From positions 1-64,000 of the forward strand of contig JAHBUV010000001.1 of NCBI GenBank assembly GCA_019637915.1: a stretch of 64,000 nucleotides of DNA, written 5' to 3'. Of the stretch, positions 2 to 34,169 are shown in pieces. The notes under the pieces were generated by a model. The model made no database searches, was not told the DNA's origin, and saw nothing but the letters and a program-made list of their open reading frames with translations. The stretch comes from Pseudobdellovibrionaceae bacterium. Lineage in GTDB: Bacteria; Bdellovibrionota; Bdellovibrionia; Bdellovibrionales; Bdellovibrionaceae. The stretch's first letter is position 1. The number at the start of each line of letters is the position of its first letter. Both the position numbers and the translations under genes were made by a program.

Positions 2-3000
2 TTCACGGGTTGTGGCGCTGGGAAGACGGTGAAGTGGCAATCGGTTCCGGATCGTGTGACTTGTGATGACATCTCCATCACGAAATCCCAGGTGAGTGAC
101 TTTCCGACCCTTGGGACCTTGTCGGCCATGAGCCCGACAGGCACGGCAAGTGGCACGACCTATCTTCGTGGTGACGGCACGTGGGCGGCTTTGCCCACGG
201 CGCCGGCGCCGGACTGGGCGGATATCACCAATAAGCCCACGACCTTCGCTCCGAGTGCGCACACCCACGCGGTGGATGAAATCACCAGCGGTTCGGGGAA
301 GTATTTCACTTACAAGCCGGACAACACTGTTTGCGCGGATGGACAGGTTTTAAAGTGGGGCAACGCGCGTTGGGAGTGCGGCAATGACGACGCCAGTGGC
401 GGCGGCGGTGGTGGTGGCATCACGGATCTGACGGGTGATGTGACGGCCTCGGGCACGGGTTCCGTCACGGCGACGATCGCGACGGACGCGGTGGTGTCGT
501 CGAAGATCAAAGACGGCAATGTCACGGGCGCGAAGCTGGAGGACGTGTCCGGCATGACCGCGAACAGCTTCGGTTCCGGCACGGCGATCCCGGTGATCAC
601 GACGGACACGAAGGGTCGCATCACGGCGATCTCAACGACGGCGGTGACGGGGGTTCTCCCTTCCGGATCGACCGGTCAATTTTTGAAGTACAATGGCTCC
701 TGGGGCGGGGCTTTGATCGACATTGGTGACATCAAGAACTCGGCTGGCAACAGCACTTTTGATTTCACAGGCTGTGCCCCTGGTAAAACCCTGAAATGGC
801 AGACGCTTCCGGACCGCGTGACCTGTGAGGACATTTCCATCACAAAATCGCAAGTGAGTGACTTGGGCACGATCGGCTCTCTGGCCGCCAAAAACTCGAT
901 CGACCTCAGCACCACGGATGCGACGGGGATCCTGACGGTCGCCAAAGGCGGCACAGGCACGAGCACGGGTTCGATCACGGGAACAGGTGCTCTCGCCTTT
1001 GAAGCTGGTGGCAGCAACCAAAACATCACCCTCACTCCGAGTGGCAGCGGGCACACGATCCTGAACGGCAACGTCGGTGTGGGCGCGCCCACACCGAGCT
1101 TTGCTTTGAGCGTGGGGGATGGAGTGGCGAAAGACGGCAGCATCCTGGCCGTGGGTTATGGCAATGCCGGCGTGGATGGGCAAACCTTGACGGCGGCTGG
1201 CGCTGGCACGCGTCTGATTTGGTATCCGAAGAAAGTGGCCTTCCGCGCAGGTGTCGTGACGAGCACGCAGTGGGACGATGCGAACATCGGTTTGATCTCG
1301 ACATCTTTCGGCATGAACTCGGAAGCCCAAGGCACAGCCGCTTTCTCAGCCGGTCAAAACGCCAAAGCGAATGGCTATACGTCGATTGCAATCGGTGAAA
1401 ACGTTGAGGCGACAGGCGGGAACACGGCTGCTATCGGAGCCGGAGCGAAAGCGACAGGAACAGGCTCGATGGCCCTTGGTGCCAACACCACGGCGGATTC
1501 CTATGCTCAGACCACGGTGGGCTGGAACAACGCCTTGAAGGGTTCTGAAGATGCCGCCTCATGGGTCGCGACGGATCCCTTGTTCGTGGTCGGCAATGGG
1601 CAAACGACGGCCGCCCGGTCGAACGCCTTGATGATCTTGAAAAACGGCAGCGTCGGTCTGGGCACCAACAGCCCGGCGGCGAAGCTCGATGTGGCGGGCA
1701 CGATCCGCGCCGAGCAGATCTGCGACGAAACCGGGAACAACTGCCATGACATCTCGACCGGATGGTCGAGTGGGGGGATCACGGCCTTGACCGGCGATGT
1801 GACGGCCTCGGGCACGGGTTCCGTCGCGGCGACTTTGGCGACCGTGTCGGGCATGACGAACAACAGCTTCGGTTCCGGCACGGCGATCCCGGTGATCACG
1901 ACGGACACCAAAGGCCGCATCACGGCCATCAGCACGACCGGCGTGACCGGCACTCTGCCCTCGGGGACAAGCGGTCATTTCCTGAAGTCCGGCGGCGGTT
2001 CTTCCTGGAGCAGTTCGACCATCCAGTTCAGCGACATCAAAAACAGCTTGGGTGGCTCGGCTTTCAACACCGGTTCCTGTGTGGCCAATCAAACGGTCAA
2101 ATGGTCCGCCTTGACGGACAAATTCGAATGCTTGGAAATCAATCTTTTGGATGCGGATAAAATCACGACGGGCACCCTCGATGCCGCGCGCCTGCCGGCT
2201 GCGGCGATCGTTCCCTCGCAGAGCGGCCAGAGTGGAAAGTTCCTGGCGACCAACGGCACGACGGCCTCCTGGGAAAACGTGATCCCGTCCCCGTCCGGTT
2301 TGACGACGCAAATTCAGTACAACAACGCCGGCGCCATGGGAGCCTCATCGGACTTCACTTGGGACAACGCCAACAAGGTCCTGAACGTCAACGGTCAGGT
2401 GCGCACCAAGGACCATTCGCAAGCCACGGGGGCGATCGATTGGAACAACGGGAACGCCATCGTGACGAGTTTTGATTGCGGCAGCAGCATTTCTTTCGCC
2501 AATTTGCGAGCCGGTGGTTCTTACACTTTGGTCGTGACGGGGACGGGAACCACGAAGTGCAGTTTCGCCCGCGCCGTGACCGGCGCTGACGCCGCCACGT
2601 TGACTTACTACTGGACGCCGGCGAACGCGGAGCGGACCGCCAACACCACGACGGTCTATTCCCTCGTGCGCACAGGCAATATGGTTCTCATCGCCTGGGT
2701 GCCGGGCATGGTCAATGACCCTTGTGACGGTGTCGGCCTCGGTGCCGCCTGTGACGGCACCACCGCTCTGGCGGCGGGGACGTTCAATAATCTGAACTAC
2801 ATGACGACACCTGGAAACTGCGCCAACTCCACGCTCAATCCGTCGTGCCCGGGAACGACGGACTCCGTGACCAAAGCGTGGGACAGCGGGTCCAACGGCG
2901 TGACGGGCGCGACGTCGATGACCGACGGGAAGGCCAACTGGACGGCGGTTTCGGGATTCACCCCCGCCCACTTCGCGGCCGCGAAGTACTGCGAGGACCT

Positions 3001-3220
3001 GGTTTACGGCGGCTATTCGGACTGGTACCTGCCCGCCAAGGACGAGCTCAATTTCCTTTACGGCAATCGGGTCGCGTTGGGTGGCTTCGCGAACGCGCTT
3101 TACTACTCCTCGACGGAAAGCAGCGGCACCAACGCCCACGTGCAGCACATGTCGACGGGCGCGGTTTCGACCCCGAGCAGGAGCTCGGCGCGCTTGTATC
3201 GTTGCGTCCGGAGTTATTGA
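2..3220 (+). CDS. Repetitive trimeric fibre/adhesin (mosaic adhesive trimer-like), 5' partial
   Basis: The reading frame is open from the first bases, and the residues before the first ATG (position 29) match a repeat found again at about 764, so the gene starts upstream of the window. The visible ~1070 residues are a mosaic. A Cys-containing unit (FTGC..GKT.KWQ..PDRVTC) occurs twice, with a degenerate third copy near 2060. A longer unit beginning LTGDVTASGTGSV occurs near 428 and 1787. Around residues 425-500 there is a YadA-head-like stretch with repeated (A)IG.NA.A.G..S.A.G spacing. The C-terminal ~130 residues resemble DUF1566/Lcl C-terminal domains, with the signatures DWYLPAKDELN and YYSSTES. 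Families like this form long trimeric surface fibres with a binding tip; Bdellovibrio mosaic adhesive trimers are the closest concept I know. Export and trimer formation are inferred. The next gene overlaps the stop codon. Confidence 0.8.
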   Translation, partial: FTGCGAGKTVKWQSVPDRVTCDDISITKSQVSDFPTLGTLSAMSPTGTASGTTYLRGDGTWAALPTAPAPDWADITNKPTTFAPSAHTHAVDEITSGSGKYFTYKPDNTVCADGQVLKWGNARWECGNDDASGGGGGGGITDLTGDVTASGTGSVTATIATDAVVSSKIKDGNVTGAKLEDVSGMTANSFGSGTAIPVITTDTKGRITAISTTAVTGVLPSGSTGQFLKYNGSWGGALIDIGDIKNSAGNSTFDFTGCAPGKTLKWQTLPDRVTCEDISITKSQVSDLGTIGSLAAKNSIDLSTTDATGILTVAKGGTGTSTGSITGTGALAFEAGGSNQNITLTPSGSGHTILNGNVGVGAPTPSFALSVGDGVAKDGSILAVGYGNAGVDGQTLTAAGAGTRLIWYPKKVAFRAGVVTSTQWDDANIGLISTSFGMNSEAQGTAAFSAGQNAKANGYTSIAIGENVEATGGNTAAIGAGAKATGTGSMALGANTTADSYAQTTVGWNNALKGSEDAASWVATDPLFVVGNGQTTAARSNALMILKNGSVGLGTNSPAAKLDVAGTIRAEQICDETGNNCHDISTGWSSGGITALTGDVTASGTGSVAATLATVSGMTNNSFGSGTAIPVITTDTKGRITAISTTGVTGTLPSGTSGHFLKSGGGSSWSSSTIQFSDIKNSLGGSAFNTGSCVANQTVKWSALTDKFECLEINLLDADKITTGTLDAARLPAAAIVPSQSGQSGKFLATNGTTASWENVIPSPSGLTTQIQYNNAGAMGASSDFTWDNANKVLNVNGQVRTKDHSQATGAIDWNNGNAIVTSFDCGSSISFANLRAGGSYTLVVTGTGTTKCSFARAVTGADAATLTYYWTPANAERTANTTTVYSLVRTGNMVLIAWVPGMVNDPCDGVGLGAACDGTTALAAGTFNNLNYMTTPGNCANSTLNPSCPGTTDSVTKAWDSGSNGVTGATSMTDGKANWTAVSGFTPAHFAAAKYCEDLVYGGYSDWYLPAKDELNFLYGNRVALGGFANALYYSSTESSGTNAHVQHMSTGAVSTPSRSSARLYRCVRSY
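428..1990 (+). repeat. Internal long direct repeat pair in the fibre gene
   Basis: The segment at about 428-690 and the segment at about 1787-1990 are close copies at DNA level. Long identical runs lie around 551-620 and 1851-1920. They encode the same module (LTGDVTASGTGSV through a TTDTKGRITAIS stretch to LPSG..G.FLK). A second repeat class (about 2-100 and 764-862) encodes the FTGC...KSQVSD module. Near-identity in DNA suggests recent duplication or recombination between modules. Confidence 0.85.
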
Positions 3221-4107
3221 TGATGCGCTTGGATCGTCTTGTCATCCGGATGCTGCTCGTCCTGTTCATTCTGGTCGCTGGCCATCCCGCCTGGGCGTTT
3301 CGACCGATGCTCGGCATGTGGTCGGCGAAAACGTCATCATCCGGGCCTGTCGCTTACGGCATCCGGAAATACATCACGCCGAACACCTACACATTCGTGG
3401 TTCCTGCGGGCGTGACCTCGATCACGGTGGATGTGATCGGCGGCGGCGGTGGGGGCGGGGCCAGTGGCGGGGGAAGCGTCTCGAGCGGCAGTCATGGCGG
3501 AGACAGCAGCTTCGGAACGACCTTGATGGTGGCTCAGGGCGGGCGCCGTGGGCTCTGTGAGAACGGATTTTCTTCGACGGGTGGCGCGGGGGGAACAACC
3601 TCCGGGACAATCGGCACGGGGTTTTCCGGTGGCGCTGGCGGCTCGGCCACGTCGACGGGAACCACGGGCGGAGGCGGGGCGGCCGGAATCACGGGCAATG
3701 GCGGAGCCGGTAAAAACACGTATTTCGGCGGCCCGGGAATGGGCGCTGGTGGTGTCGGCGGCGGCGCCGCGGGCGGGGCGGCGGGAAACGGCGGCGGTGG
3801 TTCGAGTTTCAATGCCAATGGGGCGGCCGGGAGCAGCGCCGGGCAAGGCGGCTCGGGCGGAGATGCCTCCAGTTTTCGTGACGGGGCCAAATACGGCGGC
3901 GGCGGGGCGAGTTACGGAGATCCGGGCTACACCTATTATTGCGCAGGTGGTGGCGGCGGCGGGCACCGGCGCGTGACCCAGTATCCTGTGACCCCGGGGC
4001 AATCCTTCACGGTCGTTGTCGGTGAAGGGGGCTATGCTCACTCCTCTTATGACGGCGGTTTGGGCGGCGGCGGCGCCGTCTTCATCCAATGGGGCGAGGG
4101 CTTTTAG
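3220..4107 (+). CDS. Secreted glycine-rich domain protein
   Basis: 295 residues. The ATG at 3220 overlaps the stop of the fibre gene (TGATG), so the two are probably co-translated; a second ATG follows directly. Residues 1-27 look like a signal peptide ending in an AWA motif. After a short linker comes YTFVVPAGVTSITVDVIGGG, then about 200 residues dominated by Gly, Ala and Ser, then PGQSFTVVVGEGG and a C-terminal AVFIQWGEG. This is the pattern of the glycine-rich domain found in phage tail and bacterial surface proteins, thought to pack as polyglycine helices on a beta scaffold. Four Cys are spread through the domain. Its coupling to the fibre gene suggests an accessory surface or tip component; this role is inference. 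Confidence 0.75.
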   Translation: MMRLDRLVIRMLLVLFILVAGHPAWAFRPMLGMWSAKTSSSGPVAYGIRKYITPNTYTFVVPAGVTSITVDVIGGGGGGGASGGGSVSSGSHGGDSSFGTTLMVAQGGRRGLCENGFSSTGGAGGTTSGTIGTGFSGGAGGSATSTGTTGGGGAAGITGNGGAGKNTYFGGPGMGAGGVGGGAAGGAAGNGGGGSSFNANGAAGSSAGQGGSGGDASSFRDGAKYGGGGASYGDPGYTYYCAGGGGGGHRRVTQYPVTPGQSFTVVVGEGGYAHSSYDGGLGGGGAVFIQWGEGF

Positions 4108-26902: not shown

Positions 26903-28810
26903 ATGCCCAGGACGATTCGTCTGGCGATGTCGGTGGTCGTGGTCGGTTTGCAGCTGGTCGCGTTCTTGAATTGTTCGGGCGGCATGCAGAGCCTGCTTGA
27001 TGCGGAAAACGCCTCCCTCTCGAATCTCCAGCCTCAAATCATTAACAATCAGTATCGTTTGCTGGGCGACATGCTTGTGCAGGTGGATGTTTATGACCGC
27101 TGGCAGGCCGGCCTCATGGACGGTGAGGTCAGCCGTGAGTTCGACGTGCAATCCGCCCACTACAACATCGGCATGAAGTACTGGCCGGGCGGCATCATCC
27201 CGGTCAAATATGATTACAACGAAGCGACCTTCACCGCCGCCGAGAGCCAGGATTTCAAAAACAAAATCCAGATGGCCTGCAATGCCTGGGGTCAGCACGC
27301 CAACATCCGTTGCGTCGAGTACAACGGCACGCAGGAGTATTACCTGGCGGCCATTCTCGCCACGTACGACGAGATGAAGGCCGGCTGCGGCACTTTCGCC
27401 GGCGCCTGCGCGACCTATCCTCTGGGAACCGCGCGCCGTTTCCTTTATGCCCTCACCACGGCCGGGGCCGCGACCGTTTTGCACGAGTTCGGCCATGCCT
27501 TGGGCTTCGTGCACGAGCACCAGCGCCCCGACCTCGACACGTACTACACCTATCCCGCCACCTTGCCGCCGGGGGTGAGCCAGGCGCAGTACAACGCCGT
27601 GAAGCCGGTGAGCGCCTCGCGACCGCTGGGGGAGTATGACCCTCAGTCCATCATGCACTACGCTTACAACGTCTTGAAAGACAGCAGCGTCCTGCTCAAG
27701 AACGAGTACAGCTCGATGGCCCTGGTCATGCGCACCTCGGCGGACATGCGCCTTTCCCCTTTCGACGCCGAGGGCGTGCAGCGTTTGTACGGCGCTCCGA
27801 CCCAGGCCGCGGGCCGCGCTTGTGAAACGCCGTCCGCGACGAAATTCGTTTTCCCGCACAACACGCAGTACGCCTTCTTCGAGAGCGAAACCGCCGTGAA
27901 CGCGAGCTGCAAATACCAGGTGCGCACCTGCCAGAACGGCACGCTCTCCGGCGGGGAAACCTACCGCCACGCCCGTTGCGTCTCCGTCTGCCAGACCCGA
28001 GACGGCGGGCAATTCATGGGAACCCAGCGCGTGTACGCGGCCATCCCGGGCGAAACGGCGTACTACAGCCTGGAGCTGAATTGCGAGGGCAGCATCGCCC
28101 GCATCCGCACGGACAGCATCCGCCTTTGCACGGCCTCCGGTCAGTGCCAGGCGACGAGCTACCTGGAGGCCGGTGAGAAGATCACCCTCACGAACCGAGC
28201 GTCGGATTACCTCTCGAAAGCTCCGGGCGCGCAGGCGATGTCCTGCACCTTCGGGGGGCAGACGGTGAACGACGGTTCCCGCGTCACCGCCTACCGGGTG
28301 GCGAGCGTGCCCTCCGGCAAATCGTGCAGTTCCGAGTCGGAATTGCGTCAATGCAGCAATGGCACCCTGTCGGGCTCCTTCGCGTATTCATCCTGCCAGG
28401 TGGAAGCCGCGCCGAGCGTGATGGACTACCTGACGCCGCAGGAGCAGAAGCGCGCCAAGTACATCATCCAGGTCTACAAGAAAGCCCTGCTGCGCGAGCC
28501 GGATGACCGCGGCCTGATCTTCTGGTCCCGTGATTACGAGGGCTACAACGGCTGCCGCAACGTCACGAAGGCTTTCCTGACCTCGCCGGAAGCGCTGCAA
28601 GTGCAGAGCAAGCTGAACAACCGCGATTTCGTTCACTACGCTTACGACCTCATCCTGATCCGCGACAGCTATCAGGATGCGGCGGGCGCCGCGTTCTGGA
28701 CGGGCATCCTCGATCGCGGCGAGGCGAGCCGCGCCGACGTCCTCAATGAGTTCTTCAAAAGCGCGGAGCTCGGCACTCTCTGCACCCAAACCTACGGTAT
28801 TGAGCCGTGA
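26903..28810 (+). CDS. Astacin-type (M12A) metalloprotease lipoprotein with a DUF4214-like tail
   Basis: 635 residues. The signal peptide ends with a lipobox-like FLNC (Cys about residue 24). The protease domain, about 90-300, has the full astacin zinc site HEFGHALGFVHEHQRPD with H194, E195, H198, H204 and R208, and a Met-turn SIMHY (M251, Y253). Two Cys-rich repeats follow (each with a C.NGTLSG core, near 345 and 480). The C-terminal ~125 residues (VYKKALLREPDDRGLIFWSR, YDLILIRDSYQDAAGAAFWTG, DVLNEFFKSAEL) are DUF4214-like. A probable surface or periplasmic endopeptidase; in a predator it could act on prey or self envelope proteins (inference). A strong hairpin follows. Confidence 0.92.
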   Translation: MPRTIRLAMSVVVVGLQLVAFLNCSGGMQSLLDAENASLSNLQPQIINNQYRLLGDMLVQVDVYDRWQAGLMDGEVSREFDVQSAHYNIGMKYWPGGIIPVKYDYNEATFTAAESQDFKNKIQMACNAWGQHANIRCVEYNGTQEYYLAAILATYDEMKAGCGTFAGACATYPLGTARRFLYALTTAGAATVLHEFGHALGFVHEHQRPDLDTYYTYPATLPPGVSQAQYNAVKPVSASRPLGEYDPQSIMHYAYNVLKDSSVLLKNEYSSMALVMRTSADMRLSPFDAEGVQRLYGAPTQAAGRACETPSATKFVFPHNTQYAFFESETAVNASCKYQVRTCQNGTLSGGETYRHARCVSVCQTRDGGQFMGTQRVYAAIPGETAYYSLELNCEGSIARIRTDSIRLCTASGQCQATSYLEAGEKITLTNRASDYLSKAPGAQAMSCTFGGQTVNDGSRVTAYRVASVPSGKSCSSESELRQCSNGTLSGSFAYSSCQVEAAPSVMDYLTPQEQKRAKYIIQVYKKALLREPDDRGLIFWSRDYEGYNGCRNVTKAFLTSPEALQVQSKLNNRDFVHYAYDLILIRDSYQDAAGAAFWTGILDRGEASRADVLNEFFKSAELGTLCTQTYGIEP

Positions 28811-32891: not shown

Positions 32892-34169
32892 AGCAGTACG
32901 AGTGGATGGAATATTTCTAGCGTCGATAACCGCAATGAGGCTTGGGGTGAGATTGTAGAGTGGTACGTTGATAAGGATTACTCGGGAAAGGACACCAATC
33001 GTCCGGGGTTCCAAAAAATGATGGGCGACATAGCCGCCGGAAGAATCAACGCTGTGATTGTGACGGAGCTGTCACGTTTGAGTAGAAGTGTGAAAGACTT
33101 CTGCGATCTTTATGAATTCTTGAAGCTCCATAAAATCACCTTCTTTTCCTTGCGAGAAAACTTTGACACATCGACGCCTGCCGGTGAACTCATGATCATG
33201 CAGTCAATTGCATTTGCTCAATTTGAACGTCATTCAATTGTAGACCGGATTCGCAAGGGCGCTAGAGCGAGAGCCGAAAGAGGCTTGGGTCACGGCTATG
33301 TGGCCCTAGGGTTTAAGTTGGTTGAGCACCGCCCAAATCACCGTGAGATTGACCCTAAAGAGAAACCTTATGTGCAGTTGATCTTTGATAAAATGCTTGA
33401 ACTAAAGCGTTTGTCGAAAGTTGTGGACTTTCTAAATGGTGAAGGCCTCAAAACGAAAGAGTTCATAACCAAGGACGGAAAAAAACGTGGTGGGAATCGG
33501 TGGACCAGAGGAAGCCTGCACTCCCGAAAGCTTCGCTCATCTGGTAACCAGCATCTTCACCGCTGTAAGGTGGAGAACGTTCCTGCCGTTCAGGTGGAAG
33601 AGGCCGTAGTAGGTCGCTTAAAGGAGTTGGCTAAGGATAAATTGTTAATTGAGGAGCTTGCGAGGGAGTCCGCAAAACTGTCCTTACGAAGCACGAAATC
33701 GAATAGTGATATGCTGGAGCTTCGCGAATCCGAAGCGGTCAAACTGCGTACAAAAGTGCATAACCTAGTTGAAGCTATTGAGGATGAAAGTGATAAGGTT
33801 GCACGGAAGGGCCTGACGGCTCGCTTAAGCAACCTGCAAGTTCAGCTCGAGCAATGCGAAGGCTATATTTTAAAGGCGCGGGAAGAGTTAAATCGCAATA
33901 GTAATGTGGTGGACGTAAAGTCTGTTTTTTCTTTGTTGAAAGCATTCAGAAGTGAGTTCGACAAAATTGACATATCCATGCAGGCAGAAGTTTTAAAGGA
34001 CATAGTAGCAGAGATCGAAGTTCACCCAGACGGAATCCAGGTGAAATACATAGGCTTAGGCAGTGGGAACACGAAAGGACCGGCATCGAGCCGGTCTTTC
34101 GTTCGTTCCGTGTCTAAATTGGTGGACCTGGACGGGATCGAACCGACGACCTCTAACATGCCATGCTAG
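32892..34169 (+). pseudogene. Decayed large serine recombinase
   Basis: The open frame from 32892 encodes EIVEWYVDKDYSGKDTNRPGF before the first ATG (33018), so the true N-terminus, including the catalytic Ser region (RVS..Q), lies upstream and is broken by a TAA at 32889-32891 and an apparent frameshift; VRVDGIFLASI in another frame may be its relic. The resolvase core is good: VIVTELSRLSRS, FDTSTPAGELMIMQSIAFAQ. Next comes the recombinase domain with NRWTRGSLHS. It then jumps directly to HRCKVENVPAVQVEEAV, so the first half of the zinc ribbon and ~60-80 residues are deleted. A coiled-coil stretch follows. The last 17 or so codons are read through tRNA-Ala. Inactive by inference. Confidence 0.8.

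Follow-up and report, generated by a model that had tools for sequence, protein, structure and literature searches.

A probable MAT-type fibre gene with a YadA-type head and an Lcl_C-type lectin-fold tip in a Pseudobdellovibrionaceae bacterium

The window analysed here comprises the first 64,000 bases of contig C1 (C1:1-64000), which accounts for 3,257,933 bases of a 3.32 Mb genome assembled in 14 contigs. Positions 2-3220 of the forward strand hold an open frame of 1072 codons, F0, that lacks a 5′ boundary, as the contig begins inside the gene. Alignment to paralogues, and a matching gene start at the other end of C1, identify the frame as the 3′ portion of a fibre gene of the MAT type. Residue r of F0, as numbered below, starts at base 2+3(r-1), and all features of this gene and of its downstream neighbour lie on the forward strand. 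A gene start, MRTSNWISICTFFVLAATTCLVIPNTAQAQSSQGITFQ, with a signal peptide lies within the final ~100 bases of C1; it is on the same strand and continues past the contig edge. The product, MRTSNW...AQAQSSQGITFQ, agrees in position and wording with two paralogues, F1 and F2: AQSSQGITFQ at the contig end corresponds to AQSSQGLTFQ in F1 (L025) and AQSSQGFTFQ in F2 (L026). Since a signal peptide and start that fit F0 are found at the far end of C1, it is probably F0 that the assembly gap interrupts, and the simplest reading is that the chromosome is circular, with the two contig ends joined through this gene. QSSQG is separated from CGAGKT(V/L)KW by 524 residues in F1 and 523 in F2, so about 520 residues would be missing from F0 and the complete protein would have about 1,600. 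Of the N-terminal domain, only the signal peptide and 10 mature residues (AQSSQGITFQ) are assembled, and this 38-residue piece gave no family match.

Immediately downstream, positions 3220-4107 encode a protein with a signal peptide and a glycine-rich domain (31% Gly) of the kind found in phage tails. Its ATG overlaps the F0 stop codon (TGATG) and is preceded by GGAG; the match to Gly_rich_2 is weak, and matches to PHROG tail families reach E 1.6e-5. Several further observations were made in the window and beyond it. Positions 26903-28810 encode an astacin-type metallopeptidase with a DUF4214 C-terminus, a similar end being visible by eye in the gene that follows the paralogue F4 (L028:4272-6551). 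A serine recombinase with a Resolvase domain (33018-34169) may belong to a mobile element. Just upstream of the fibre start on C1, L032:8659-9660 encodes a secreted protein with propeller-like repeats and a weak DUF6242 match. Contig C7 of G000 (L233, L234; 39,350 bp) is lower in GC (54% over the initial 8 kb), with no terminal repeat found, and reads as phage-like from a terminase-like GARGGGKTD frame, an S74 end and a Gly-rich protein; it could represent either a phage belonging to this bacterium or contamination of the bin.

F0 is built from repeated connector modules, a head, a pre-tip domain and a tip. From its N-terminal side, the order is module B (residues 1-46), a collar-like module with the wording GDGTWA/FAPSAHTH (about 42-100), module A (about 137-229), module B again (255-300), an AKGGTG linker, a YadA-type head (357-565), a second module A (about 590-662), a linker, the pre-tip domain (795-900) and an Lcl_C tip (about 924-1072). 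The collar-like wording recurs in tail proteins of Streptomyces phages. The copies of module B (CGAGKTVKW...SQVSD) occupy positions 2-137 and 764-899 and are 73% identical. Module A (ITDLTGDVTASG...NSFGSGTAIPVITTDTKGRITAIS) occupies 411-689 and 1770-1988, with 85% identity between 411-483 and 1770-1842 and 78% between 530-689 and 1829-1988; the longest exact match between its copies is 47 nt. The two internal module classes described in the initial annotation were thus recovered, but at 73-85% identity and with an exact run of 47 nt at most, the copies are not near-identical as it had put it. The same annotation had proposed a collagen-like stalk. The longest Gly-X-Y run in F0 is three triplets, and a collagen stalk was rejected.

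The YadA-like module, with its leading motif WYPKKVAFRAG..TQWDDANIG, spans positions 1070-1696 and contains 14-residue repeats at about 1286-1537. Its repeats scored below the Pfam cut-off (18.2 versus 25 bits), so that the YadA-like part anticipated from sequence did not find support from Pfam; it did find support from structure prediction. The AlphaFold2 model shows a beta-roll that repeats every 14 residues; its mean pLDDT is 80, with block values of 92-98 over model residues 71-150 and strands at 78, 92, 106, 120, 134 and 148. Structure prediction here drew on homologues from viruses and named genomes. Every one of the nine best PDB matches to the model was the head of a trimeric adhesin (BpaC, AtaA, BoaA, CbpF), with Foldseek E-values just above 0.001 and probability 1.00. 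As modelled, the F0 shaft holds a YadA-type head with the 14-residue beta-roll. A scan of genome contigs with F0 returned mainly relatives of this module in Bacteroidota, Gemmatimonadota, Micavibrio and others. The module has 33 relatives in other phyla. Ahead of YadA-type repeats, the motif WYPxKAAFRAG..TQWDDANIG is strongly conserved across these groups (window 1070-1696; L095-L129).

The C-terminal part of F0 comprises two domains. The pre-tip domain (2384-2701), probably a beta-sandwich, is homologous by alignment score to the C-terminus of L147, a B. bacteriovorus fibre of 1964 aa (score 104, shuffled maximum 62, z 11.8). It was modelled by AlphaFold2 with low confidence that leaves the fold unresolved, and a PDB search with it gave no real match. 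The tip proper (2771-3217; Pfam match 2894-3211) scored 38.5 bits against Lcl_C/DUF1566 (PF07603), above the gathering cut-off of 34.9, and 42.3 bits in the genome search, which bears out the DUF1566/Lcl-type C-terminal domain proposed initially. Sequence comparison with the PDB matched it to the C-terminal domain of Legionella Lcl (Lcl-CTD, 8q4e; E=1.7e-9, 27-29% identity). In the tip model, confidence was high only in the Lcl_C part (blocks 78-95). The model aligned to Lcl-CTD with Foldseek E 6.4e-6 and Z 11.5 (3.2 Å, 111 residues), to a Bacteroides fimbrial protein (4eps) with Z 11.6, and to the Bdellovibrio tip Bd2740 (PDB 8oks) with Z 9.1 (2.9 Å over 96 residues). The predicted fold of the F0 tip is the C-type-lectin-like fold of Lcl-CTD.

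Six paralogues (F1, F2, F3, F4, F5 and F8) bring the number of fibres in this genome to seven. F0 is 35% identical to F1 (780 aligned columns, E 5e-113) and 33% identical to F2 (715 columns), and it shares with other MATs a long fibre shaft. The curated NCBI model Bdello_MAT_N (NCBIfam NF053851, cut-off 60 bits) describes a conserved N-terminal domain, some 130 aa long, that follows the signal peptide. Against it, five of the six paralogues passed (F1, 119 bits; F2, 114; F3, 72; F5, 104; F8, 117), with F4 below at 18 bits. The model matched in 103 of 291 genomes of the phylum and in none of 14 control genomes. F0 is tied to the MAT family by its shaft and by the start at the contig end. The tips of the seven fibres fall into four classes: Lcl_C type in F0, F1 and F4, Peptidase_S74 in F3 and F5, a short Cys-rich end in F2 and a Gly-rich end in F8. 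Tip alignments gave z 32 for F0-F1 and z 18 for F0-F4, the Pfam match of F4 reaching only E 0.024.

A profile built from the aligned N-domains of five paralogues of this genome matched in 50 of 60 relatives and identified 21 genes in genome G036. A gene of G036 (L152:6211-8109) has a tip identical to PDB 8oks, named Bd2740 in the structure library, which identifies G036 as B. bacteriovorus. For searching named genomes with the N-domain alignment, its conservation was too low. The 21 genes of G036 equal the published number of MATs in strain HD100 (21; PMC10769870). At least seven genes from six related genomes (G001, G023 with two genes, G057, G052, G020 and G046) combine a MAT N-domain and an Lcl_C-type end within a single frame, while Pfam detected no Lcl_C domain in B. 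bacteriovorus G036. Together, the family model, the paralogues, the relatives and the fold comparison support the initial view that F0 is a mosaic adhesive trimer whose tip is lectin-like. The trimeric state would follow that of Bd2740 and Lcl-CTD, the tips of both having been solved as trimers (Bd2740: PMC10769870), as have relatives of the head.

That view had also included ongoing exchange of modules. Sharing with paralogues elsewhere in the genome was confirmed, both in the shaft common to F0 and F1 and in a tract at 1688-1776 (LDVAGTIRAEQICDETGNNCHDISTGWS) that is 93% identical to F1 by blastn. The fraction of identical codons at residues shared by two copies was compared with an expectation calculated on codon usage in five fibre genes, a test that treats codons as independent and was applied to several windows. 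For module A (~430/~1790), codon identity was 0.62 against 0.42 expected (p=0.0005), rising to 0.75-0.85 in the core windows, and for the 1688-1776 tract it was 0.85 against 0.48. Module B (2-137/764-899) was saturated, at 0.41 against 0.46 expected, and the shaft shared by F0 and F1, at 0.50 against 0.45, was no different from unrelated codons. The bases of F1 and F2 showed an excess (0.63 against 0.43 expected), whereas their tips are unrelated. Since codon identity is at saturation outside the two short tracts, most shared modules are ancient and have been retained through selection on protein sequence. The 430/1790 core and the tract shared with F1 look comparatively recent, arising by gene conversion or duplication. 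Exchange of modules is thus real but of small extent, and the idea that it is ongoing was supported only in part, the remaining shared shaft being at synonymous saturation.

These data make it very probable that F0 is a MAT fibre of a Bdellovibrio-family bacterium, with a MAT base, a phage-like and YadA-type shaft and an Lcl_C tip, in a repertoire whose tips are swapped without a retroelement. The signal peptide and the conserved N-terminal MAT domain, most of which falls in the assembly gap, would hold the fibre on the cell surface. Connector modules of phage-tail type and the YadA-type beta-roll would trimerise and project it, and tips and short shaft tracts would be swapped between paralogues over evolutionary time. 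Pieces of the shaft do give matches among minor tail proteins of phages and among PHROG tail families, and relatives of the Lcl_C-type tip were confirmed in 422 IMG/VR stretches of viral contigs (the best 80 of the 422 being kept), as would be expected if F0 were instead the tail fibre of a resident phage or prophage. This is very unlikely on account of the signal peptide; the paralogues carry signal peptides and the MAT N-domain, they sit singly and scattered over the chromosome, and F0 itself adjoins mreB and a glycosyltransferase rather than phage structural genes.

The MAT reading also fares better than two alternatives that concern the tip. The C-type-lectin fold occurs in established targets of retroelements, Mtd among them. 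Bd2740 has been noted to resemble Mtd (PMC10769870). The initial annotation had raised DUF1566-type ends as targets, and the F0 tip could then be the variable region of a diversity-generating retroelement. A search for the reverse transcriptase RVT_1 (PF00078) found no match in the genome, some 18 kb masked in small contigs being unread, while 3 of 14 control genomes were positive; with no reverse transcriptase found in the sequence read, diversification by this route is very unlikely. Clear homology to Lcl_C and a common fold could likewise suggest a host adhesin whose tip binds sulphated glycosaminoglycans (GAGs) as Legionella Lcl does. In Lcl, mutation of the heparin-binding lysines K369, K380, K385 and K391 lowers GAG binding, and R342 stabilises the trimer. 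In the phmmer alignment, these four lysines face Ser1040, Ser1051, Ser1056 and Ser1062 of F0, and Arg342 faces Lys1013. With all four replaced by serine, a GAG ligand for the F0 tip appears unlikely, an Lcl-like adhesin is most improbable, and the ligand probably differs from that of Lcl. Our best guess, drawn from an analogy to the MAT Bd2439, is a glycan of a bacterial surface.

Whether the tip has a second component was considered for the downstream Gly-rich gene. In some T-even phages, the long tail fibre carries a cap formed by the gp38 adhesin, and the secreted protein of 3220-4107 could by analogy be a separately made subunit capping the F0 fibre in a bipartite tip, a hypothesis we regard as improbable. 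A similar Gly-rich domain forms the end of F8 (a short alignment, barely above shuffles) and of a fibre-like frame in G013; there it is fused, whereas here it is a separate gene with its own signal peptide. The idea that the gene is a conserved partner of MATs was rejected: it occurs in two of 60 genomes, its own included, and no gene of this kind was seen right after F1-F4.

In comparison with known systems, F0 is an example of tip swapping within the MAT family rather than a new kind of system. It agrees with the B. bacteriovorus MATs (PMC10769870; NF053851) in the signal peptide, the N-domain (seen on the paralogues), the long modular phage-like shaft and the swapped tips, and its pre-tip domain is homologous to one of their fibre ends. 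It differs from them in its Lcl_C/DUF1566 tip and in the YadA-type head within the shaft; the main text of PMC10769870 does not contain 'DUF1566', 'Lcl' or 'YadA'. Bd2740, with its trimeric C-type-lectin tip, shares family and tip fold with F0, but its tip is only 10% identical and has no Lcl_C match, and the F0 shaft is longer and unlike. Legionella Lcl has a homologous C-terminal domain; its collagen stalk and helical N-region are both absent from F0. Trimeric autotransporter adhesins (YadA, BpaC, AtaA) have the head repeats found in the F0 shaft, yet F0 ends in an Lcl_C tip, and Pfam found no YadA membrane anchor domain in it.

The MAT repertoire has been proposed as the prey-recognition system of Bdellovibrio, and the F0 fibre may likewise serve in adhesion to prey. 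Lcl_C-type lectin-fold tips are used repeatedly by the MAT repertoire in related genera, and constitute a class for which Pfam gives no match in the model strain. As bases, shafts and swapped tips all occur in one genome, the specificity of these tips could be tested on glycan arrays.
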